From Rhizobiaceae bacterium (GTDB taxonomy: Bacteria; Pseudomonadota; Alphaproteobacteria; Rhizobiales; Rhizobiaceae): a stretch of DNA of 11,820 bases. Positions 566 to 11,820 of the stretch are shown one piece after another. Numbering within the stretch: the first letter of the stretch is position 1; every line of letters starts with the position of its first letter. The notes under the pieces are model-generated. The model ran no database searches. It had not been told where the DNA came from and saw only the letters and a program-made list of their open reading frames with translations. A program made the translations under genes and the position numbers. The DNA lies in assembly GCA_028865845.1 (NCBI GenBank), contig JAGWJK010000046.1, positions 1-11,820 on the forward strand. The letters are read 5' to 3'.

Positions 566-1534
566 CTACTTCAGGGCGGCGTCGGTGATCTCATGCGTAT
601 AGGCGCCGGTCGGCTTCTTGCTGATGATCTTCTGGTTGAGAAGCGCGTCGACCGTACGGTCGTAAAGCTTCGGATCGAGCTTGCCGTTACCGATCAGCTT
701 GGCGACTTCGCCCATCATCCGCTTCTGGTGGTTTTCGTCCTGGCCGCCATTGTCCATGACAATTTCGGCGGCCTCATCCGGATGTTCGGCGGCGTATTTC
801 CAGCCCTTCATCGAAGCGCGGACGAACTTGACCATGTCGGCCTTGAACTTCGGGTCCTTCAGCTTGGTCTCATTGACGTAGAGACCGTCTTCGAGCAGGT
901 CGTTGCCGAGCTTGGTGTAGTTGAAGACGATGAGGTCTTCCGGCTTGAAACCGGCATCGACTGCCTGCCAGTATTCGTTATAGGTCATGACGGAAATGCA
1001 GTCGGCCTGTTTCTGGACGAGCGGCTGAACGTCGAAGCTCTGCTTCAGGACGTTGACGCCATCCTTGCCGCCGTCGGTCTTGAGGCCGAGCTTGTGCATC
1101 CAGGCGAAGAACGGATATTCGTTGCCGTAGAACCAGACGCCGAGCGTGTGGCCCTTGAAGTCGGCTTCGGTCTTCACCGGGCCATCCTTCGGGCAGATCA
1201 TTTCCAGGCCCGACTTGTCGTAGGGCTGGGCGATGTTGATCAGCGGAACGCCCTTTTCGCGAGCGACCAGAGCGCCACCCATCCAGTCGACGATGACATC
1301 GGCGCCGCCGCCGGCGATCACCTGTTCCGGCGCGATATCCGGGCCGCCCGGCTTGATGTCGACGTCGAGCCCTTCATCCTTGTAGTAACCCTTGTCCTTG
1401 GCGACGTAGTAACCACCGAACTGGCCCTGCGCGACCCATTTCAGCTGCAGCGTCACCTTGTCGGCAGCCATGGCTGCCTGCGCGGCCGCCAGCGCAAATG
1501 CGCTTGCCATCAGTGTAACCATCAGTCTTTTCAT
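566..1534 (-). CDS. ABC transporter periplasmic substrate-binding protein, NMT1/THI5-like
   Basis: A 322-residue periplasmic binding protein. Residues 1-23 are a signal peptide (MKR, hydrophobic core, AMA cleavage before ADK). The mature protein begins with the family hallmark: a strand (VTLQLKW), then QGQFGGYYVAKDKGYY and EGLDVDI, as in NMT1/THI5-like, SsuA- and ThiY-type proteins. Many relatives bind aromatic ring compounds such as pyrimidine precursors, sulfonates or nitriles. It captures ligand in the periplasm and delivers it to the two permeases encoded upstream. The SD AAAGGA lies about 8 bases before the ATG. It is the last gene of the minus-strand operon, 56 bases after permease 2, and is followed by a strong terminator. 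The ligand is not readable from the sequence. The neighbouring pyrimidine catabolic genes suggest a pyrimidine, dihydropyrimidine, hydantoin or ureide (inference). Confidence 0.88.
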   Translation of the reverse strand: MKRLMVTLMASAFALAAAQAAMAADKVTLQLKWVAQGQFGGYYVAKDKGYYKDEGLDVDIKPGGPDIAPEQVIAGGGADVIVDWMGGALVAREKGVPLINIAQPYDKSGLEMICPKDGPVKTEADFKGHTLGVWFYGNEYPFFAWMHKLGLKTDGGKDGVNVLKQSFDVQPLVQKQADCISVMTYNEYWQAVDAGFKPEDLIVFNYTKLGNDLLEDGLYVNETKLKDPKFKADMVKFVRASMKGWKYAAEHPDEAAEIVMDNGGQDENHQKRMMGEVAKLIGNGKLDPKLYDRTVDALLNQKIISKKPTGAYTHEITDAALK

Positions 1535-1568
1535 GCTTTTTGTCCTTTTCCCTCTGAAGTTATGCCTT

Positions 1569-1585
1569 GATCCCTTGATGGGATC
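1569..1585 (-). other. Intercistronic stem-loop before the binding-protein gene
   Basis: GATCCC (1569-1574) and GGGATC (1580-1585) form a perfect 6-bp stem with a 5-base loop in the 56-base gap between permease 2 and the binding-protein gene. There is no T-tract. A stem here could shield a processed 5' end of the binding-protein message, as such hairpins do in some ABC operons (inference). Confidence 0.4.
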
Positions 1586-1590
1586 TTAGG

Positions 1591-2724
1591 CTACGCCTGT
1601 CCACCACGGATAGACGGATGCCAGAACGTCGTCATCCGCTCGATCACGGCGACGACACCATAGAAAACAGACCCGGCAACCGCGGCAACCGCGATTTCCG
1701 CCCAGACCAGATCGAGATTCATCTGGCCGTTTGCGACCGAGATGCGAAAGCCCATACCCGACATGGGGGTGCCGAAGAACTCCGCCACGATGGCACCGAT
1801 CAGCGCCAACGTCGAGTTGATCTTTAGCGCATTGAAAATAAACGGTGCGGCGGCGGGCAATCGAAGTTTGAACAGTGTCTGCGAGTAGCTCGATGCGTAG
1901 GTGCGCATCAGGTCCCGCTCCATATTGCCGGCGGCGGCGAGGCCCGCAACCGTGTTCACCAGCATCGGGAAGAAGGTCATGATGACGACTACGGCAGCCT
2001 TGGACTGCCAGTCGAAGCCGAACCACATGACCATGATCGGCGCAACGCCAATGATCGGCAGCGCCGAGACGAAATTGCCGATGGGCAGCAGTCCGCGGCG
2101 AAGAAAGGCGATGCGATCGGCAAGGATCGCGACCAAAAAGCCGCTGCCGCAGCCGAGGACATAGCCCGAAAGCACGGATTTGAAGATGGTCTGCTGGAGG
2201 TCGATCCACAGGGTCGGCACCGAGCCGGCGATCGTGGCGCCGATAGCGCTTGGTGGCGGCAACAGGATCGCGGAAACGCCGCCGCCGCGGACGGCGGCTT
2301 CCCATATGATGAGGATCCAGGCGCCGAAGATCGCGGGGATCAGCAGCCGCAGCCCATAATTGCCCGCAGCCGAGTCGGGCCGCACCGTCGAGAGCACGGT
2401 GACGCAACGCCAGGCAAGCAGCCAGGCTGCGGCGATGAGCAGGAAGAAGGAAAGGGTGGCAGTGCCCTCATTGCCGGTGATGCCCGACAGCAGCAGCCAT
2501 GCCGCGCCATGAGCGCCGACGAACAACACCACGGCCGCGATAAGGGCCGGCGCGCCGAGAAGCGAAATGACGCCGGCCGCGACGATCAGCAGAAAGATCA
2601 TGACGACGACGCCACTGCCGAACGGCGCCGCCGCGTCCGCCGTCGTCAGCGGCAGCATGATTGCCGCCACGAGACAGAGGAGAAGTGCAAGCACAACCTG
2701 CCAGGACAATCGGGTCGACCTCAT
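1591..2724 (-). CDS. ABC transporter permease with extended N-terminal membrane region
   Basis: A 377-residue inner-membrane permease of the binding-protein-dependent (SsuC/TauC/ThiX-like) type. The conserved core starts near residue 125: a helix at about 126-143, the LPPPSAI segment at 155-161 that precedes the transport domain, and then the core helices. The coupling loop (RTYASSYSQTLFKLRLP, 274-290) contacts the ATPase. Family members are usually 250-290 residues. Here about 110 extra N-terminal residues carry roughly four more hydrophobic segments (about 8-25, 38-55, 58-78, 90-107). The ATG overlaps the upstream permease stop (ATGA), with GGAGGG about 9 bases before the start, implying translational coupling and a heterodimeric channel. 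Function as permease is well supported; the role of the N-terminal part is unknown. Confidence 0.88.
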   Translation of the reverse strand: MRSTRLSWQVVLALLLCLVAAIMLPLTTADAAAPFGSGVVVMIFLLIVAAGVISLLGAPALIAAVVLFVGAHGAAWLLLSGITGNEGTATLSFFLLIAAAWLLAWRCVTVLSTVRPDSAAGNYGLRLLIPAIFGAWILIIWEAAVRGGGVSAILLPPPSAIGATIAGSVPTLWIDLQQTIFKSVLSGYVLGCGSGFLVAILADRIAFLRRGLLPIGNFVSALPIIGVAPIMVMWFGFDWQSKAAVVVIMTFFPMLVNTVAGLAAAGNMERDLMRTYASSYSQTLFKLRLPAAAPFIFNALKINSTLALIGAIVAEFFGTPMSGMGFRISVANGQMNLDLVWAEIAVAAVAGSVFYGVVAVIERMTTFWHPSIRGGQA

Positions 2725-3614
2725 GCCGCACGCCCTCCCATGGACCGGTCGACAAGGCGCGCGGCGATGCCGACGATCGTCACCAGCAGCGCGGCGAGGA
2801 TCGAGCCGGCAACGAGTGCGGCCCAGAGGTCGATCGTCTGGCTGTAGTAGGAGCCGGCAAGAAGCTTGTTGCCGATGCCGATGCCGTCGACGGCGCCGGT
2901 CGGCAGCTCGCCGATGATGGTACCGACCAGGCTCGCGGCAATCGCCACTTTCATCGAGGTAAAGAGGAAAGGGATCGATGCCGGCACGCGCAGTTTCCAG
3001 AAAGTCTGCGCGCTGCTGGCGTTATAGGTCCGCATCAGGTCGAGATGCATGACCTCGGGCGAGCGCAGCCCTTTGACCATGCCGACGGTGACCGGGAAGA
3101 AGGACAGATAGGTGGAGATCAGCGCCTTGGGTATCAGGCCCTGGATGCCGATCGCGCCGAGCACGACGATGATCGTCGGCGCGATGGCCAGGATCGGTAT
3201 GGTCTGCGACGCGATGACCCACGGCATCAGGCTGCGGTCGAGCGCCACCAGATGGACGATGCCGACCGCAATCAGCACGCCGAGGATGGTGCCGAAGGCG
3301 AAGCCGACGGCCGTTGGAAACAGGGTGACCCAGGCATTGTTGATCAGGCTGCGATTGCTGGTCGGTGCTCGAAGGAAGGTATTTTCAAACACGTTCTGCG
3401 CCACCTGATGTGGAGCCGGCAGGGTCGGCTTCGGCTGGGACAGTGTCTTGTCTATGAATTCCAGCGTGCCGGAGGTGACATTGCCGCGCCGGTCGATGTC
3501 GCGCTGGAATGGCGCGTTGAGAAGGATGGCGAAGATGTACCACAGGACGATGATCGCCAGCACGATCGTCGTCACCGGTATGAACTTGTGCTTGAAGAAC
3601 TGTTCCTTCTCCAT
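2721..3614 (-). CDS. ABC transporter permease
   Basis: A 297-residue permease paired with the overlapping downstream one. A first membrane helix spans about 12-32. A hydrophilic periplasmic stretch of about 60 residues follows (LPAPHQVAQNVFEN at 65-78 is the usual lead-in). The core helices run from about 93 to 285. The EAA-like coupling loop is RTYNASSAQTFWKLRVP (195-211). The frame stays open upstream for another 71 codons, but that part overlaps the preceding gene out of frame and is basic and non-membrane. The ATG at 3614, two bases after the upstream stop and preceded by GGAAGGGAAG, is therefore the start. With the ATPase and the other permease it should form the membrane channel of the importer. 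Specificity follows the binding protein and is not visible here. Confidence 0.88.
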   Translation of the reverse strand: MEKEQFFKHKFIPVTTIVLAIIVLWYIFAILLNAPFQRDIDRRGNVTSGTLEFIDKTLSQPKPTLPAPHQVAQNVFENTFLRAPTSNRSLINNAWVTLFPTAVGFAFGTILGVLIAVGIVHLVALDRSLMPWVIASQTIPILAIAPTIIVVLGAIGIQGLIPKALISTYLSFFPVTVGMVKGLRSPEVMHLDLMRTYNASSAQTFWKLRVPASIPFLFTSMKVAIAASLVGTIIGELPTGAVDGIGIGNKLLAGSYYSQTIDLWAALVAGSILAALLVTIVGIAARLVDRSMGGRAA

Positions 3615-3616
3615 CG

Positions 3617-3952
3617 TCACATCTTCCCTTCCACCGGAAACATCATCAAAGCCATGGCGACGACGCCGAAGCCGACGCCGGCAAGCTGCGTCATGCTCAG
3701 CCGTTCCCCGAAGACGACGAAGGCGATGATGTTGACGACGACGAGCTGGGCGATCGCCGAAGCGGAGATTGCCAGACCCAATCCGCCCTCGCGCATCAGA
3801 CGCACCATCATCAGATTGCCGATGCAATAGAGGAAAAGCGCTAACACAAGGGTGAGGATATTGTTGTTGCTGATATAGGCGCGGGAGGCAGTCGCGCCGC
3901 TGATGAAGATCGCCATGGCGCCGGCGAGCCAGAGGAGGAATTGCGCGTTCAT
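3617..3952 (-). CDS. Small four-helix membrane protein, EamA/DMT-like half transporter
   Basis: A 111-residue, very hydrophobic protein with four predicted helices (about 5-22, 32-50, 58-80, 87-105). The motif VVFGERLSMTQLAGVGFGVV (79-98) is the classic end of an EamA domain (GERLT..Q..G..LI..G). Length and topology resemble a single EamA repeat or an SMR protein. The membrane-embedded glutamate at position 14 of EmrE-type SMR pumps is absent (Ala14), so a multidrug pump is unlikely. It sits inside the ABC operon, 9 bases after the ATPase stop (SD AGGA in the junction) and 2 bases before permease 1, so it is almost certainly co-translated with them. It may act as an accessory exporter or exchanger, or as a subunit associated with the importer (inference). 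The domain assignment is fairly secure; the function is unknown. Confidence 0.75.
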   Translation of the reverse strand: MNAQFLLWLAGAMAIFISGATASRAYISNNNILTLVLALFLYCIGNLMMVRLMREGGLGLAISASAIAQLVVVNIIAFVVFGERLSMTQLAGVGFGVVAMALMMFPVEGKM

Positions 3953-3961
3953 GACGTGATC

Positions 3962-4753
3962 CTACTCCTCATAGCTGTGACCGGCATGCAGCCCTTCACG
4001 GACGCGATGGGCTATTTCCAGGAATTCGGGCGTTTCGCGAATACCGAGCGGGCGTTCGAGCGGCAGAGTGGATTCGATGATGTCGGTGACGCGGCCGGGG
4101 CGGGGCGACATGACCACGATCTTGGTGGAGAGATAGACCGCCTCGGGGATCGAGTGGGTGACGAAACAGATGGTCTTGTTCGTCCGCTTCCACAGTTTCA
4201 ACAGTTGCTCGTTGAGGTGATCGCGGACGATTTCGTCAAGCGCGCCGAAGGGCTCGTCCATCAGCAACAGGTCGGCATCGAAGGCAAGCGCACGGGCGAT
4301 CGAGGCTCGCTGCTGCATGCCGCCGGAAAGCTGCCAGGGGAATTTTCTCTCAAAGCCGGTGAGATTGACCAAATCGAGCGTCTGGGCAATGCGCTTGGCC
4401 TGCTCGGCCTTGGCGTAGCCCATGATTTCCAGCGGCAGGGCAATGTTCTTTTCGATGGTGCGCCAGGGATAAAGGGCCGGTGCCTGGAAGACATAGCCAT
4501 AGGCGCGAGCCTTGCGGGCTTCGTCCGGCGTCATGCCGTTGACCGTGACGTCGCCGGAGGTCTTGCGCTCGAGATCGGCGATCACGCGAAGGAAGGTGGT
4601 CTTGCCACAGCCGGATGGGCCGATGAAGGAGACGAAATCGCCTTTTTTCACGTCGAGATCGACATTGCTCAGCGCGTGCACCGGCCCGTCATTCGTCTCA
4701 TAGGTAAGGCAGAGGTCCCGCGCGGAGACGACAGAAGCGGCCGATGACGTCAT
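3962..4753 (-). CDS. ABC transporter ATP-binding protein
   Basis: The 263-residue cytoplasmic ATPase of the importer, SsuB/TauB/ThiZ-like. Visible motifs, numbered from the ATG: Walker A GPSGCGKT (45-52), Q-loop FQAPALYPWRT (Q90), signature LSGGMQQR (142-149), Walker B LLLMDE (162-167), D-loop GALD, and switch histidine in VTHS (H200). Length is normal for the family. A GTG two codons upstream (4759) is also open, but it would sit directly on the Shine-Dalgarno. The AGG at 5 bases before the ATG at 4753 fits that start better. It is the first gene of the five-gene minus-strand operon and faces the cupin gene across a 124-bp divergent region. Confidence 0.92.
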   Translation of the reverse strand: MTSSAASVVSARDLCLTYETNDGPVHALSNVDLDVKKGDFVSFIGPSGCGKTTFLRVIADLERKTSGDVTVNGMTPDEARKARAYGYVFQAPALYPWRTIEKNIALPLEIMGYAKAEQAKRIAQTLDLVNLTGFERKFPWQLSGGMQQRASIARALAFDADLLLMDEPFGALDEIVRDHLNEQLLKLWKRTNKTICFVTHSIPEAVYLSTKIVVMSPRPGRVTDIIESTLPLERPLGIRETPEFLEIAHRVREGLHAGHSYEE

Positions 4754-4877
4754 TAACACCTACCAGTTAGATTTTCGCCACGCGGTCGTGACGGATTGCG
4801 TGTTATTCTGAAAAATATTCTCGCGGCGTCGCTGCGCGTGCGTGGCGCAAAGCGGCTCGAGTCAAAGGAGGAACTAT
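4754..4877. promoter_or_regulatory. Divergent promoter region between the ABC operon and the cupin gene
   Basis: Both flanking genes read outward from this 124-bp gap, so it must hold at least one promoter. Its centre is AT-rich (about 4801-4823) in otherwise GC-rich DNA. No well-spaced -35/-10 pair stands out on either strand, and no good copy of the RutR-type dyad is present. An unusually strong Shine-Dalgarno, AAAGGAGGA (4864-4872), lies 5 bases before the cupin ATG and decides its start. Confidence 0.5.
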
Positions 4878-5352: not shown

Positions 5353-5367
5353 TTGACCAAGCGTCAA
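5353..5367. promoter_or_regulatory. TTGACCA dyad overlapping the hydantoinase stop, possible RutR half-site
   Basis: TTGAC-CAAGC-GTCAA is a perfect 5-bp dyad. Its left side, TTGACCA, equals a full RutR half-site, but the right half is one base too close. It overlaps a stop codon between convergent genes, so a promoter function is unlikely. It may be chance. Confidence 0.15.
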
Positions 5368-6818
5368 ACTCCGCTGGCCGGGATGCCGCTGCGCTGCACC
5401 TTGCGCGGCGCGGTGACTTCTTTCCAGGTGGAGAGCGCCCGGTTGACGGCGGTGAAGGGCTCGCGCTTGACGAACTCGCCATGGCCTTCCCTGGTCTTGA
5501 TCGCGCCTTCCTCGATTGCGACCACGCCGCGCGTCAACGTGTAGCGCGGCAGGCCGGTGACTTCCTTGCCCTCGAAGACGTTGTAGTCGATCGCCGACTG
5601 CTGCGTCTTGGCGGCAATCGTCTTCGAGCGCTTCGGGTCCCAGACGACGATATCGGCATCGGCGCCAACCAGGATCGCGCCCTTCTTCGGATAGACGTTG
5701 AGAATCTTGGCGATATTGGTCGAGGTGACGGCGACGAATTCGTTCATCGTCAGGCGGCCGGTATTGACGCCATAGGTCCACAGCATCGGCATACGGTCCT
5801 CGAGGCCGCCGGTGCCGTTCGGGATCTTGGTGAAATCGTTGAGGCCGAAGCGCTTCTGTTCGGTGGTGAAGGCGCAATGGTCGGTCGCGACCACCTGCAG
5901 AGAGCCGGAGGCGAGGCCGGCCCAGAGGCTATCCTGGTGTTGCTTGTTGCGGAACGGCGGCGACATGACGCGACGGGCGGCATGATCCCAGTCGGCATTG
6001 GCATATTCGGTTTCGTCGAGCGTCAGGTGCTGGATCAGCGGCTCGCCATAGACGCGCATGCCCTTCTGGCGGGCGCGGCGAATGGCTTCGTGCGCCTGTT
6101 CGCAGGAGGTATGGACGATGTAGACCGGGCTGCCGGCCATGTCGGCGATCATGATCGCGCGGTTGGTCGCTTCGCCCTCGACTTCTGCGGGGCGGGAATA
6201 TGCATGGGCTTCCGGACCGTTATTGCCTTCGGCGAGCAGCTTTGCCTGCATCTGCGCGACGACGTCGCCATTTTCGGCGTGCACGAGCGGCAGTGCCCCG
6301 AGTTCGGCGCAACGCTGGAACGAGGAGAACATCTCGTCGTCATCCACCATCAGCGCGCCCTTGTAGGCCATGAAATGCTTGAAAGTGTTGATGCCCTTCT
6401 CGCGGACGACAGCCTCCATCTCGTTGAAGACCTGTTCACCCCACCAGGTGATCGCCATGTGGAAGGAAAAGTCGCAGCTGGCCCGGGTCGATTTGTTGTC
6501 CCACATGGTCAGAGCTTCAAGCAGCGACTGGCCGGGCGCGGGCAGGGCGAAATCCACCACCATCGTCGTGCCGCCGGCAAGGGCTGCCCGCGTGCCGCTC
6601 TCGAAATCATCCGAGGAATAGGTGCCCATGAACGGCATTTCGAGATGGGTGTGCGGATCGATGCCGCCGGGCATGACGTAACAGCCGGACGCATCGAGCA
6701 CTTCGTTGCCCGACAGGTTCTGTCCGATCTCGACAATCTTCCCACCGTCAATCTTGACGTCGGCCTTATAGGTCAGATCGGCCGTAACGATGGTTCCACC
6801 CTTGATGACTGTGGTCAT
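5364..6818 (-). CDS. hydA: Dihydropyrimidinase / hydantoinase
   Basis: A 484-residue amidohydrolase-superfamily enzyme, the usual length for the family. It hydrolyses 5,6-dihydrouracil or dihydrothymine to N-carbamoyl-beta-alanine or N-carbamoyl-beta-aminoisobutyrate; relatives also open hydantoins. The binuclear zinc site is complete: H56 and H58 (DPHTHLE), the carboxylated lysine K153 (FKHFMAYKGAL), H180 (LVHAEN), H236 (IVHTSC) and D313 (ATDHC). Substrate-loop segments MSPPFR (285-290) and NGTGGLEDRMP (334-344) are also typical. It acts in the cytoplasm as step two of the reductive pyrimidine pathway. It follows the amidohydrolase gene by 82 bases on the same strand, so the two are probably co-transcribed. 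The SD is AGGGA about 10 bases before the ATG. Whether the physiological substrate is dihydropyrimidine or hydantoin cannot be read from sequence; the linked preA favours dihydropyrimidine. Confidence 0.95.
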   Translation of the reverse strand: MTTVIKGGTIVTADLTYKADVKIDGGKIVEIGQNLSGNEVLDASGCYVMPGGIDPHTHLEMPFMGTYSSDDFESGTRAALAGGTTMVVDFALPAPGQSLLEALTMWDNKSTRASCDFSFHMAITWWGEQVFNEMEAVVREKGINTFKHFMAYKGALMVDDDEMFSSFQRCAELGALPLVHAENGDVVAQMQAKLLAEGNNGPEAHAYSRPAEVEGEATNRAIMIADMAGSPVYIVHTSCEQAHEAIRRARQKGMRVYGEPLIQHLTLDETEYANADWDHAARRVMSPPFRNKQHQDSLWAGLASGSLQVVATDHCAFTTEQKRFGLNDFTKIPNGTGGLEDRMPMLWTYGVNTGRLTMNEFVAVTSTNIAKILNVYPKKGAILVGADADIVVWDPKRSKTIAAKTQQSAIDYNVFEGKEVTGLPRYTLTRGVVAIEEGAIKTREGHGEFVKREPFTAVNRALSTWKEVTAPRKVQRSGIPASGV

Positions 6819-6900: not shown

Positions 6901-8154
6901 TCAAGCCACGATCTCCGCCGTCTCGACGACCGCGTGGAACAGGACGTCCGCGCCGGCGGCGGCCCATTCCTTGGAGATCTCTTCCGCCTCGTTGTGCGAA
7001 AGGCCGCCGACGCAGGGGCACATGACCATGGTGGCGGGGGCGACCTTGGCGGCCCAGCAGGCGTCATGGCCGGCGCCGGAAATGATGTTCATGTGGCTGT
7101 AGCCAAGCCTCTCGGCGGCGTTGCGCACCGCGGTCACCAGCTTCGGATCGAAGGTTACCGGTTCGAAATGGCCGATCGCTTCGACGGAGCAGCCAACGCC
7201 GAGTTCGTCGCAGATTTTCGGCGCTTCGGCCTCGATCTTGGCGCGCATGCGATCGAGTTTTTCCTTATCGGGGGTCCGCAGGTCGACGGTGAAGACGACC
7301 TTGCCCGGCAGCACGTTGCGCGAGTTCGGCGAGAAGAAGACCTGACCGACGCCGGCAACGGCGCCCGGCTGGTTTTCCATCGCCACGGCCTGCACCATTT
7401 CCAGGATCCGCGACATCGCAAGTCCGGCATTGACGCGCATGTTCATCGGCGTCGAGCCGGTATGCGCTTCCTTGCCCGTCAGGGTGAATTCCAGCCACCA
7501 CAGACCCTGACAGTGTGTCACCACGCCGATCTGCTTGTCCTCGTTTTCGAGGATCGGGCCCTGCTCGATATGGTATTCGAAATAGGCGTGCATCTTGCGG
7601 GCGCCGACTTCCTCGTCGCCGAGCCAGCCGATGCGCTTCAGTTCCTCGCCATAGGTCTTGCCATCAGGGTCCTTGCGACCATAGGCGTATTCCAGCGAAT
7701 GGACGCCGGCAAAAACGCCCGATGCGAGCATGGCCGGCGCAAAACGCGCACCTTCTTCGTTCGCCCAGTTGGTCACGACGATAGGGTGCTTGGTCCTGAT
7801 GCCGAGATCGTTCATCGTGCGGACGACTTCGAGCGCTGCGAGCACGCCAAGCACGCCGTCATATTTGCCGCCGGTCGGCTGGGTGTCGAGATGCGAGCCG
7901 ACGTAGACCGGCAGGACCGAGGGATCGGTGCCGGCGCGGGTTGCGAACATCGTCCCCATCTTGTCGACGCCAACGGTCATGCCGGCGCTTTCGCACCACG
8001 TCTTGAAAAGGCTGCGGCCTTCGGCGTCGGAATCCGTCAAAGTCTGGCGGTTGTTGCCGCCGGCAATGCCGGGGCCGACCTTCGCCATATCCATAAGCGC
8101 ATCCCAAAGGCGGTCGCCGTTGATACGCATGTTTTCGCCTGGCGCTGCCACCAT
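6901..8154 (-). CDS. pydC: Zn-dependent N-carbamoyl-beta-alanine / N-carbamoyl-L-amino-acid amidohydrolase (M20 family)
   Basis: A 417-residue member of the M20-family amidases that includes bacterial beta-ureidopropionase and L-carbamoylase. It should cleave N-carbamoyl-beta-alanine to beta-alanine, CO2 and ammonia, the last ring-derived step. Visible metal and catalytic residues: H88 (GSHLDT), D99 (GGKYDGVLG), E133 and E134 (ANEEGARF), H194 (EYHIEQGP) and H387 (GLSHNEAEE). Substrate and dimer residues occur in KEAHTGSTP (H231) and SPNSRN (R279). The frame is open for 82 more codons upstream, but that part is unlike the family and contains the promoter and operator. The ATG at 8154 has GAGGA 7 bases before it. 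The gene is transcribed away from the RutR-like regulator and leads the pair with the hydantoinase. Agrobacterium members of this family accept both beta- and alpha-carbamoyl substrates, so range is uncertain. Confidence 0.92.
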   Translation of the reverse strand: MVAAPGENMRINGDRLWDALMDMAKVGPGIAGGNNRQTLTDSDAEGRSLFKTWCESAGMTVGVDKMGTMFATRAGTDPSVLPVYVGSHLDTQPTGGKYDGVLGVLAALEVVRTMNDLGIRTKHPIVVTNWANEEGARFAPAMLASGVFAGVHSLEYAYGRKDPDGKTYGEELKRIGWLGDEEVGARKMHAYFEYHIEQGPILENEDKQIGVVTHCQGLWWLEFTLTGKEAHTGSTPMNMRVNAGLAMSRILEMVQAVAMENQPGAVAGVGQVFFSPNSRNVLPGKVVFTVDLRTPDKEKLDRMRAKIEAEAPKICDELGVGCSVEAIGHFEPVTFDPKLVTAVRNAAERLGYSHMNIISGAGHDACWAAKVAPATMVMCPCVGGLSHNEAEEISKEWAAAGADVLFHAVVETAEIVA

Positions 8155-8170
8155 AATGCAATCCTCACCT

Positions 8171-8239
8171 GTTTGTCCTCGGTCATGCAAGGCGCATGCC
8201 CGTTTGTTCCCGTGGTCACTGATCGAGGCGCTTGTTTGT
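8171..8239. repeat. Three GTTTGT copies at about three-helical-turn spacing
   Basis: GTTTGT occurs at 8171-8176, 8202-8207 and 8234-8239, spaced 31 and 32 bases apart (close to three DNA turns). All lie in the predicted amidohydrolase leader. The copies may bind a regulator on one face of the helix, or may be chance in a short word. Confidence 0.2.
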
Positions 8240-8288
8240 TTTTGTCGCCCCGGAAAATCGTCGGTTGCCTTTGGAAGACAACTGTCGG

Positions 8289-8317
8289 ATAATTTGACCG
8301 ATTGGTAAACATTACAA
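8289..8317 (-). promoter_or_regulatory. Candidate sigma70-type promoter for the amidohydrolase-hydantoinase operon
   Basis: On the minus strand TTGTAA (8317-8312, 4 of 6 matches to TTGACA) and AATTAT (8294-8289, 4 of 6 to TATAAT) are separated by exactly 17 bp. Transcription would start near 8282, giving a leader of about 128 bases before the ATG at 8154. The RutR-like dyad fills most of the spacer, which supports both calls. Confidence 0.45.
8294..8309. promoter_or_regulatory. RutR-type operator
   Basis: TTGACCGATTGGTAAA matches 12 of 14 defined positions of the E. coli RutR palindrome (TTGACCA-NN-TGGTCAA) and keeps its 16-bp frame and centre. It lies in the gap between the RutR-like gene and its divergent target, 140-155 bases upstream of the amidohydrolase start and inside its candidate promoter. 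Binding there by the apo-regulator would block polymerase, and uracil or thymine would be expected to release it, by analogy with E. coli RutR. Confidence 0.6.
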
Positions 8318-8454
8318 CTTCCGTCGCGACGCTCAAGACGAAAAGCACGAAAATTCCCGATAAAATTAAAGGCAACTGCCCAAATTTGCAGCATGGGCAT
8401 GGCGAATGAGAGCTCGGCCGAAGGGCTTGGATTTCAAGGAGAAACAGAGCAGAC

Positions 8455-9099
8455 ATGGCCATCCCCAGAGCCGCGAAGACGCAGCGTCGCACGCGCATAC
8501 AGGAAGAGAAGGAAGAGCAGATACTCGAAGCCGCCCTGGATGTGTTCTCCGTGCACGGGTTTCGGGGTTCGACCATCGACCAGATTGCCGAGGTGGCGGG
8601 GATGTCGAAGCCAAACCTGCTCTACTATTTCCGCACCAAGGAAGCGATGCACCGGGCGCTTATCGACCGGGTGCTGTTCACGTGGCTGGAACCGTTGCGC
8701 GCTTTCAATGCCGGAGGCGATCCGGAGAGCGAGATCCGCTCCTATATCCGCCGCAAGCTGGAAATGGCCCGCGACTTTCCGCGCGAGAGCCGGCTCTTCG
8801 CCAATGAAATGCTGCAGGGGGCGCCGCATGTCGAAGAAGAGCTTCGCGGCCCCTTGAAAAGCCTTGTCGATGAGAAGGCCGAGGTGATTCGCGCCTGGGC
8901 GAAATCCGGCAAGATCGCCAAATGCGATCCCTATCACCTGATCTTCTCCATCTGGTCGACGACGCAGCACTATGCGGATTTCGATGTACAGGTCCGCGCC
9001 GTGCTCGGCCAGGAGCATTCGGGCGAGGGGCGCTTCGAGGATGCGGCCCGATATCTCGAAAAGCTCTTCGTCGACGGATTGAGCATCCGCCGGGTTTAG
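8455..9099 (+). CDS. rutR: TetR-family pyrimidine-responsive regulator, RutR-like
   Basis: A 214-residue TetR-family repressor. The N-terminal DNA-binding domain has its helix-turn-helix at about 38-60 (STIDQIAEVAGMSKPNLLYYF), almost the same as E. coli RutR (QIAELAGVSKTNLLYYF) as I recall it. The ligand domain also tracks RutR closely: KLEMARDFPRESRLFANEML (101-120), GAPHVEEEL, LVDEKAEVI and IWSTTQHYADF (166-176). RutR binds uracil or thymine, which weakens DNA binding. Conservation of the reading helix fits the RutR-type site at 8294-8309. In E. coli RutR controls the oxidative Rut pathway; here it sits beside the reductive pathway. AAGGAG ends 13 bases before the ATG, a longer gap than usual. 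It faces the amidohydrolase gene divergently, a common layout for a self-regulated local repressor. Confidence 0.92.
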   Translation: MAIPRAAKTQRRTRIQEEKEEQILEAALDVFSVHGFRGSTIDQIAEVAGMSKPNLLYYFRTKEAMHRALIDRVLFTWLEPLRAFNAGGDPESEIRSYIRRKLEMARDFPRESRLFANEMLQGAPHVEEELRGPLKSLVDEKAEVIRAWAKSGKIAKCDPYHLIFSIWSTTQHYADFDVQVRAVLGQEHSGEGRFEDAARYLEKLFVDGLSIRRV

Positions 9100-9192
9100 G
9101 TGACGACACACCGCATGTCCGATTTGGCGGCGCGGCATCAGGTTTTCCCGAATGCTGCTGGACCGACCCTAAGCGCTTTCGCGCCGTTCGCC

Positions 9193-10632
9193 TTAGTGAC
9201 CGCTCTTCGAAGCGTCTGCCTGCAAGGCCGTGAGGTTCTTTTCCGCCGCTGACAGTATATCGCGCGTAATGTTGGCATAGACCTTGGTGCCGGTCTTATC
9301 CATGAAGGGGATGATCTCGCGGGCGAGGGTGATCGATTCATTGAGCATCGCGACGCGATCGTCTTTGGTAAGCGAGAGATCGGGGGCCTGTTCGTAATGC
9401 AACAGCGTACGGGCGAGCTTCATCTTGGAGTAAACGATATCCTCCTGGTCGCCGATCTTCTGAGCCATGGCCAGTGCATCGCGGTGATGCTGGAGCGCCG
9501 TGCGGAAACCGGCCTCGTCATGATCGATCTCCGCCTTCAGCAATACCGAATCGCCGAGATTGGCGAGCGCCGCCCAGCCGTCGGTTTGGCTGATGCCCTG
9601 CTTCAGCTGGTAGGCCCAGCTATCGTACTTTACGGCTTTTTCGGCGTCCGCCTTGTCGTTGGTTCTGTCGGCGATGCGGCCGTATTGCGCGCCGAGGCTC
9701 GTCGTCGCGCGGGAGAGCATATAGTCGGTGGCGCCATGCTGGTTGGCCTCGAGCCATTGTGCCATGGGAGCAACGCCCCGGCGGAGATAAGCGATCGACT
9801 GGTCGCCGGTCACGATCTCGGCGGCGTAGCCGAGTGCGGCTGAAAAGTCTTCGGCAAAGCTCAGTTGCTGCTCGGTCGTCGCATCCTTTGTATTGGCGTT
9901 CCTTTGTTCGAGAAGATCGGCTGCGCGCACCAGCGGCGCGTCGTTCGATCGCCAGCGGCCGACTTCGGTCAGCGCGTCGATCAGGCCGGGCGGTATGTAG
10001 CCGGCACAATCATCACGGCCGACCAGGGGGCAGAGCGTCAGCTGCGCCTCGCCGGCCTCGATCGCGAAGGCGGAGCCGAACAGGAATGGCGGGTCATAGT
10101 GCGGGAAATGATCGCTGGTCAAACCGGCGAGCCAGTTGCTTTCCAACACCGCCGACGCCGTCGTGGCAGCATCAGGGGGAAGAACGTCGAGCGCCTCCTT
10201 GAGACTGGACAGCGCGAGCGCAATGTCGCCATCCTTCTCGTCTTCGCTTTGCTGCGGATTGGCGGAACTCAGCGTGTACAGTTGCTGCGCCAGCTTGGTC
10301 AGCCGGACGCTTTTATCGACCGAGGGCAGGGAGGAGAGATCGCCGCAATCGCCGACGTTTAGAACATCATAGGGGCCGAGCGCGGCCTTCAAGGTGTCGA
10401 ATCGTTCGCAGATGTCCCTGTCGCCCGGATAGTTGAACGCATCGAGCAGGGGCGTCGAGAATTGGGCTTCGTGACCGTGAGCATCGGAAAAGCTGCGAAG
10501 TTTTACCGGTGCTTCCGCTTGCGGCGGCGAAGGGTTCGTGTCGAGCGTCGGCGCAACGGATCTTTCGTAAAGAAAGAAAACGATAAATGCGATGGCGGCA
10601 AGAGTTATTGCGACCGCCACCCATTTTCTCAT
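9193..10632 (-). CDS. Membrane-anchored, probably periplasmic helical-repeat (TPR-like) protein of unknown function
   Basis: I do not recognise this 479-residue protein. An N-terminal anchor (MRKW, then hydrophobic to about residue 22) is followed by a Pro-rich linker (about 28-42) and a long soluble part, so it is most likely attached to the inner membrane and facing the periplasm. It has exactly four cysteines in two close pairs (C75/C96 and C201/C209), which suggests two disulfides. From about 230, and clearly from 305, it is built of Ala-rich amphipathic helices. ALANLGDSVLLKAEI and TALQHHRDALAMAQKIGDQED look like degenerate TPR pairs. A GTG at 10638 is open, but GAGGA sits 8 bases before the ATG at 10632, so the ATG is chosen. 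It follows preA by 79 bases on the same strand across a large hairpin. It converges on rutR with a 93-bp gap that contains no strong terminator. Confidence 0.75.
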   Translation of the reverse strand: MRKWVAVAITLAAIAFIVFFLYERSVAPTLDTNPSPPQAEAPVKLRSFSDAHGHEAQFSTPLLDAFNYPGDRDICERFDTLKAALGPYDVLNVGDCGDLSSLPSVDKSVRLTKLAQQLYTLSSANPQQSEDEKDGDIALALSSLKEALDVLPPDAATTASAVLESNWLAGLTSDHFPHYDPPFLFGSAFAIEAGEAQLTLCPLVGRDDCAGYIPPGLIDALTEVGRWRSNDAPLVRAADLLEQRNANTKDATTEQQLSFAEDFSAALGYAAEIVTGDQSIAYLRRGVAPMAQWLEANQHGATDYMLSRATTSLGAQYGRIADRTNDKADAEKAVKYDSWAYQLKQGISQTDGWAALANLGDSVLLKAEIDHDEAGFRTALQHHRDALAMAQKIGDQEDIVYSKMKLARTLLHYEQAPDLSLTKDDRVAMLNESITLAREIIPFMDKTGTKVYANITRDILSAAEKNLTALQADASKSGH

Positions 10633-10650
10633 CCGCACGATCCTCGATTT

Positions 10651-10711: not shown

Positions 10712-11820
10712 TTATTCCGCTGCCTGACGTGCCATCGGATTGTTCGGATGCGTCGTCCAGTTGGCATAGTTCGGATCGACGATCTTGCCGGTGCGCTTGT
10801 CGAGGGCGCCGGCCGGCAGTTGCTCCATGGTGATGCAGTTTTCAACCGGGCAGACGCTGACGCAGAGATTGCAGCCGACGCATTCCTCGTCCATCACCTC
10901 GAAATGCCTGATGCCGTCCACCATGTTGGTGATCGCCTGGTGCGAGGTGTCCTCGCAGGCGATGTAGCAGCGGCCGCACTTGATGCAGGCGTCCTGGTCG
11001 ATCTTGGCCTTGGCGATGTAGTTCAGGTTGAGATACTGCCAGTCGGAGACGTTCGGGACGGCACGACCCATGATGTCGTCCAGATTGCGATGACCCTTCT
11101 CGTCCATCCAGTCTGACAGGCCTGAGATCATTTCCTGCACGATCTTGAAGCCGTAGGTCATGGCCGCCGTGCAGACCTGCACGTTGCCTGCGCCAAGCGC
11201 GATGAACTCGGCCGCATCGCGCCATGTGGTGATGCCGCCGATGCCGGAGATCGGCAGACCGTAGGTTTCCGGATCGCGGGCGATTTCGGCGACCATGTTG
11301 AGCGCGATCGGCTTGACCGCCGGGCCGCAATAACCGCCGTGGCTGCCCTTGCCACCGACCGTCGGATTCGGCGCGAAATTGTCGAGATCGACCGAAACGA
11401 TCGAGTTGATCGTGTTGATCAGCGACACGGCGTCCGTGCCCCCGGCCTTGGCGGCGCGGGCGGGCTTGCGGATGTCGGTGATGTTGGGCGTCAGCTTGGT
11501 GATAACGGGCATGCGCGTGTACTGCTTGCACCAGCGCACGACCATCTCGATATATTCCGGCACCTGCCCGACCGCGGAACCCATGCCGCGTTCGGACATG
11601 CCGTGGGGACAGCCGAAATTGAGTTCGATGCCGTCCGCTTCGGTTTCCTCGACCAGCGGCAGGATCGCCTTCCAGGCGTCTTCGACGCACGGGACCATGA
11701 TGGAGGCGATGAGCGCGCGATCCGGCCAGTTCTTCTTCACCTGCTTCATTTCGCGCAGGTTGGTGTAGAGGTCGCGATCGGTGATCAACTCGATGTTGTT
11801 GAGACCGAGCAGGCGGCGGT
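10712..11820 (-). CDS. preA: NAD-dependent dihydropyrimidine dehydrogenase, catalytic subunit PreA (N-terminus outside window)
   Basis: The frame is open to the right edge, so 368 C-terminal residues are visible; the family is usually about 420-440, leaving roughly 70 missing. The FMN TIM-barrel is clear: NNIELITDRD at the edge and ELNFGCPHGMSERGMG with the active-site cysteine (visible residue 70, codon 11611-11609). Further barrel motifs are ITKLTPNITDI, LINTINSI, SGIGGITTW and VQVCTAAM. Two [4Fe-4S] ferredoxin motifs follow: CIKCGRCYIAC (visible 278-288) and CVGCNLCVSVCP (313-324). The enzyme reduces uracil or thymine to the 5,6-dihydro form using NADH through a partner flavoprotein (PreT), which is not in the window and would be expected just to the right. 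This is step one of the pathway completed by the hydantoinase and amidohydrolase. Family and function are secure. Confidence 0.95.
   Translation of the reverse strand, partial: RRLLGLNNIELITDRDLYTNLREMKQVKKNWPDRALIASIMVPCVEDAWKAILPLVEETEADGIELNFGCPHGMSERGMGSAVGQVPEYIEMVVRWCKQYTRMPVITKLTPNITDIRKPARAAKAGGTDAVSLINTINSIVSVDLDNFAPNPTVGGKGSHGGYCGPAVKPIALNMVAEIARDPETYGLPISGIGGITTWRDAAEFIALGAGNVQVCTAAMTYGFKIVQEMISGLSDWMDEKGHRNLDDIMGRAVPNVSDWQYLNLNYIAKAKIDQDACIKCGRCYIACEDTSHQAITNMVDGIRHFEVMDEECVGCNLCVSVCPVENCITMEQLPAGALDKRTGKIVDPNYANWTTHPNNPMARQAAE

Follow-up and report, generated by a model that had tools for sequence, protein, structure and literature searches.

A predicted, deeply conserved RutR-type operator between predicted face-to-face promoters in a rhizobial reductive pyrimidine cluster, and its probable link to CycR of Sinorhizobium meliloti

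Which promoters would be controlled by a palindrome placed between an amidohydrolase gene and a divergent gene for a TetR-type regulator, and which protein would read it? The question arose from a stretch of 11,820 nucleotides of a Rhizobiaceae bacterium (assembly GCA_028865845.1, contig JAGWJK010000046.1), referred to below as the window, in which a first-pass annotation, made from the letters alone, had pointed to a RutR-like palindrome lying exactly in the 17-bp spacer of the amidohydrolase promoter. The window carries a rhizobial cluster of reductive pyrimidine genes, and the palindrome occupies part of the 300 bp that separate pydC from the regulator gene. The features concerned are:

5364 to 6818, minus strand: pydB, dihydropyrimidinase (TIGR02033, 608.6 bits against a cut-off of 393.25)
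6901 to 8154, minus strand: pydC, N-carbamoyl-beta-alanine amidohydrolase type, M20 family (8c46, E 5.7e-232)
8294 to 8309, no strand: RutR-like operator, TTGACCGATTGGTAAA, a dyad self-complementary at 6 of 8 base pairs
8455 to 9099, plus strand: RutR-type TetR regulator of 214 amino acids (PDB entries of RutR, E 1e-59 to 1e-61)
10712 to 11818, minus strand: preA, subunit of dihydropyrimidine dehydrogenase, truncated by the window end (NF006183, 624.3 bits against 335)

The first gene of the divergent operon is here pydC, which also scored above the cut-off for NF006769, a subfamily named allantoate amidohydrolase. No divergent rutABCDEFG operon was found beside the regulator gene, the neighbours being pydC and pydB. 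A class III aminotransferase gene stands between rutR and pydC in several other Rhizobiaceae (L180 13255-14601, for example) and is there the first gene of the divergent operon, which fits the use of beta-alanine. The window further contains NitT-type ABC transporter genes (566-4759) and, between rutR and preA, a reading frame of 481 amino acids (9193-10638) without any Pfam or NCBIfam match.

The protein encoded at 8455-9099 combines a TetR_N domain (PF00440, E 6.7e-13) with a YcdC-like C-terminal domain (PF08362, E 1.4e-50) and is identical to RutR of Escherichia coli at 100 of 203 aligned residues (49%). Since it remained below both NCBIfam cut-offs for RutR equivalogs, clearly for TIGR03613 (242.2 bits against 368) and narrowly for NF011584 (227.1 against 230), we name it RutR-type and not a RutR equivalog. 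No other gene of this type is present in the genome, where the next-best TetR protein is 26% identical. The five uracil contacts of RutR (W77, Y97, W167, Q171 and Q179, according to the portion of PMC10891134 available) are kept in 81 of 81 sequences in an ungapped alignment with the E. coli protein; protein family and pocket residues are thus read directly from the sequence, as are the site, its conservation and the second site treated below. The DNA-reading helix, described in the first-pass annotation as nearly that of RutR, proved to be so, with SKPNLLYYF here and SKTNLLYYF in E. coli, a single difference (T53P). That T53P causes an altered operator was considered and dropped, because every rhizobial RutR-type protein examined has proline, both with A and with G at position 7 of the site, so that the two do not covary.

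The palindrome at 8294-8309 agrees at 12 of 14 positions with the RutR consensus TTGACCANNTGGTCAA. This level was reached by 6 of 5000 dinucleotide shuffles of the gap (8155-8454), and the palindrome is the sole site with two mismatches in the window, where three sites with at most three mismatches were found against 0.32 expected. The earlier claim of a 12-of-14 RutR palindrome beside a RutR-like gene is confirmed. The site is a palindrome of about 16 bp, carries the TTGACC half-site and lies beside the gene of its own presumed regulator. When the motif was loosened and the whole 6.1-Mb genome searched, its matches did not exceed those of a reversed-pattern control (2 against 2, and 37 against 30 for a second form), so that the case is carried by place and conservation and not by the match alone. 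A third exact match to the loose pattern in this genome (C28:5381, corresponding to L225 1501-1516) falls in a gap between nadD-like and modA-like frames; it has no clear pyrimidine link and may be a chance match.

Conservation was followed in three samples. In the named set (80 named Rhizobiaceae loci from GTDB genomes), an operator at 12/14 was present upstream of the regulator gene in all 80 loci. In a second set of 95 further loci, several of them from the same genomes as named loci, all 74 loci with a RutR at least 65% identical had at least 10 of the 12 half-site positions (11 or 12 in 73 of them), and among the 21 loci with a more distant RutR a good site was found in 9 and none in 12. 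The Sinorhizobium group, sampled separately (33 genomes searched), showed the operator together with divergent pydC in 30 of 30 loci. The dyad is therefore kept in close relatives that retain both genes, where its loss had been named in advance as speaking against the regulatory model. Of 26 Rhizobiaceae genomes that have a close RutR, 22 contained a site with at most one mismatch, against 2 of 15 others (Fisher p 1e-5; the 41 genomes were counted by hand and the split was chosen after the data had been seen). The palindrome is a real, deeply conserved site, predicted to be a RutR-type operator, and it very probably controls genes of uracil breakdown.

The promoters around this predicted operator are arranged otherwise than had been proposed:

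8265 to 8270, plus strand: predicted rutR −35, TTGCCT, in a conserved island (9/12 with its −10)
8288 to 8293, plus strand: predicted rutR −10, GATAAT, adjoining the operator, start expected near 8300
8289 to 8317, minus strand: promoter of the first-pass annotation, TTGTAA-17-AATTAT (both hexamers in 4 of 52 representatives)
8309 to 8314, minus strand: predicted pydC −10, TAATGT, 16-bp spacer, overlapping the final base of the operator, with transcription expected to start near 8302
8331 to 8336, minus strand: predicted pydC −35, TTGAGC (CTCAAG present in all 80 named loci)

According to the original proposal, the operator fills the spacer of TTGTAA-17-AATTAT, transcription of pydC starts near 8282, and RutR blocks the polymerase there. 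Both hexamers are indeed present on the minus strand (TTGTAA at 8317-8312, AATTAT at 8294-8289) with a 17-bp spacer, and base 8294 is common to the −10 hexamer and the operator. The pair scores 8/12, under the 9/12 threshold of the promoter scan but one point above TTGAGC-TAATGT (7/12) when the window sequence is taken by itself; in this region the scan lists only the plus-strand pair TTGCCT-17-GATAAT (8265-8293, 9/12). Among the 80 named loci, 71 have the −35 (TTACAA in plus-strand reading); GATAAT, which overlaps the −10, is present in 72, the other 8 carrying a 1-base deletion (GATAT). As the hexamers are mostly kept there, close relatives do not decide, and the −10 is kept in part because its bases are shared with GATAAT, the likely −10 of rutR.

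For a wider comparison, 163 contexts were clustered at 80% identity into 52 representatives (12 of the 95 further loci, distant and without a good site, and 1 more without flank were left out). Both hexamers of the TTGTAA-17-AATTAT pair were recovered in only 4 of these, the −35 in 5 and the −10 in 12, against 32 with TAnnnT and CTTGA 24 bases apart on the minus strand beside the operator, at offsets 15 or 16 (the same pair was found once at offset 17 and once at one other place). A minus-strand TAnnnT at the place of the predicted pydC −10 was present in 40 of the 52. The place of TTGAGC-16-TAATGT was the best of 160 minus-strand offsets, with a mean score of 7.19 compared to 6.50 for the place of the originally drawn promoter, which ranked eighth. 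The latter, although its hexamers exist as described, is thus unlikely to provide the main start, and the spacer model as a whole appears improbable to us; the start of pydC is now predicted at about 8302 and no longer at about 8282, and the operator would lie over starts instead of filling a spacer. What stands of the earlier model is a RutR-type regulator with a conserved operator facing reductive-pathway genes, but not the promoter as drawn. It had also missed the predicted plus-strand promoter of rutR, of which TTGCCT together with GATAAT was found in 11 of the 52 representatives, all of the Rhizobium-like clade, and the second operator before preT.

This second operator, TTTACCGTTTGATAAA, lies in the window's own genome on a contig other than that of the window (contig C710, L176 2444-2459), 59 bases before the start of preT, the dihydropyrimidine dehydrogenase gene that is the partner of preA. 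An operator-type site was present upstream of preT in 41 of 41 named loci with preT in reach, scored as 12 of 12 positions of a pattern that had been loosened to admit the preT operator. The right half of the operator, TTGATA, is followed 16-17 bases later by a TAnnnT and may also serve as the −35 of the preT promoter, as read by eye without a statistic. The gap preceding the ABC transporter ATPase gene, taken as a negative control, gave a best score of 7-9/12 in all 80 loci; with sites present before preT and the transporter gap negative, the distribution is specific by place despite the genome-wide count of the loose motif. The ABC transporter was accordingly rejected as a third direct target, the site being absent in 80 of 80 loci, and uracil control of the uracil-induced transporter would need another route. 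The tolC effect came with lowered nitrogen-control genes and so may not be attributable to RutR.

The operator might instead serve mainly the autoregulation of rutR, with a pydC promoter located elsewhere or with activation of pydC by a different nitrogen regulator. The best-scoring promoter in the gap is in fact the plus-strand one, and SMc01814 of S. meliloti appears in a study of a nitrogen-stress regulator (PMC3596328, as far as its available text goes). The minus-strand pattern beside the operator is, however, deeply conserved (32 of 52), an operator of the same type precedes preT, and sigma-54 promoter matches in the window (11 against 12.9 expected) are not above chance, which led us to reject a sigma-54 promoter; we regard autoregulation as the chief role as quite improbable.

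We consider it likely that, taken as a whole, the palindrome is best explained as the operator of the neighbouring RutR-type repressor, through which pydC-pydB, rutR and preT-preA would be controlled. A single dimer-sized site would separate the −10 elements of two promoters that face each other, of which TTGCCT-17-GATAAT would read to the right into rutR and TTGAGC-16-TAATGT to the left into pydC-pydB. With the operator flanked by the two −10 elements, both starts are expected within it, near 8300 and 8302; a bound repressor would cover the two of them and so block rutR as well as pydC-pydB. The repressor would be released by uracil (perhaps also thymine) in the ligand pocket, upon which pydC-pydB, rutR and preT-preA would rise; through the second operator preT-preA, encoding the first enzyme of the reductive pathway, would come under the same control. 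Binding, repression, release by uracil and the start points are predictions from sequence. With two named operators and starts predicted to a few bases, they allow the control of uracil and thymine breakdown in rhizobia to be tested sharply and cheaply.

A regulator of this type has probably been studied already in S. meliloti under another name. CycR (TR01819, SMc01819), a TetR-type protein, has been reported to bind the adenylate cyclase CyaC, its targets being given as "unknown", and its gene follows SMc01817 (LysR) and SMc01818 (CyaC) (PMC10463352, available text); SMc01820 is listed as an N-carbamyl amino acid amidohydrolase in the accessible part of PMC2912261. By numbering, CycR thus stands between an adenylate cyclase and an amidohydrolase and is, like the window regulator, of TetR type. 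In the Sinorhizobium or Ensifer locus L106 an adenylate cyclase gene with a 2Fe-2S domain (8718-10457) converges on rutR and is followed by a LysR gene. The order pydC-like gene, TetR gene, 2Fe-2S adenylate cyclase gene, LysR gene was found in Sinorhizobium or Ensifer loci, and a cyclase converging on rutR was seen only in these and in L189; overall, cyaC adjoins rutR in 29 of the 30 Sinorhizobium-group loci and in 5 of the 80 named loci. The window does not have this order, as it lacks cyaC, and its own genus lacks cyaC beside rutR. Since gene order and numbering match SMc01817-SMc01820, CycR is probably the RutR-type regulator of S. meliloti, and the operators would supply candidate targets, plus a ligand, for a protein whose published partners are known. 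In a joint reading that we hold to be rather doubtful, the window's own genus keeps an older, CyaC-free form of the switch.

CycR differs from the window regulator in having been reported as a partner of CyaC and cAMP-Clr with targets unknown, in contrast to the genus of the window without an adjacent cyaC, and the main text of the CycR paper, where available, mentions neither RutR, uracil nor pyrimidine (PMC10463352). The Sinorhizobium regulator might then be chiefly a co-regulator with cAMP-Clr, its pyrimidine sites being a relic, as would suit its reported binding to CyaC and cAMP-Clr (PMC10463352, same portion) and the cyclase gene beside rutR in nearly all loci of that group. The operator is nevertheless kept in all 30 of those loci, the Clr core motif GTNNCNNNNGNNAC was found in none of 5 Sinorhizobium or Ensifer gaps and in 3 of 81 loci in all, and 75 of the 80 named loci have no cyaC next to rutR; we think it very improbable that the sites are relics. 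For the same counts, the single occurrence of the core in the window (8206-8219) was rejected as a Clr site.

The window regulator shares with RutR of E. coli the two domains, the pocket residues, the half-site TTGACC and a gene divergent from an operon of pyrimidine breakdown, and its operator is identical at 12 of 16 positions to the best RutR-like site in the E. coli rutA-rutR gap. It differs in sequence (49% identity, T53P in the recognition helix), in an operator that is symmetric, with TGGTAAA on one side, and placed at both predicted starts, and in its predicted targets, which are reductive (preTA, pydB, pydC), whereas those of E. coli RutR are the oxidative Rut genes. The reductive pathway would thus come under a regulator family that is known for its role in the oxidative Rut pathway. 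Leyn et al. (2016) predicted RutR as a regulator of pyrimidine catabolism in 68 genomes of 13 proteobacterial taxa, with a motif that changes taxon by taxon; the main text, in the portion available, does not name Rhizobiales for RutR and gives no promoter positions (PMC5343134). The window operator may already be listed in RegPrecise. In the literature on RutR (rhizobia, alphaproteobacteria, dihydropyrimidinase) and on CycR-CyaC, to the extent that its texts were accessible, no paper was found that describes the operator or equates CycR with RutR. For Azorhizobium, a RutR-like motif has been described in the promoters of a mobile element; judging by the available text, that setting is unrelated (PMC9601964). 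The predicted regulon is solid and mostly expected; the corrected promoter layout and the testable link to CycR are added to it.

A further element was seen in the pydC leader, where all 80 named loci retain GTTCCC (8206-8211 in the window); after it come a few variable bases and then, for the most part, GGTC. Rfam gave zero matches in 8100-8480. In the mRNA the element reads GGGAAC, about 52 bases before the start codon, and is perhaps an RNA or protein site.
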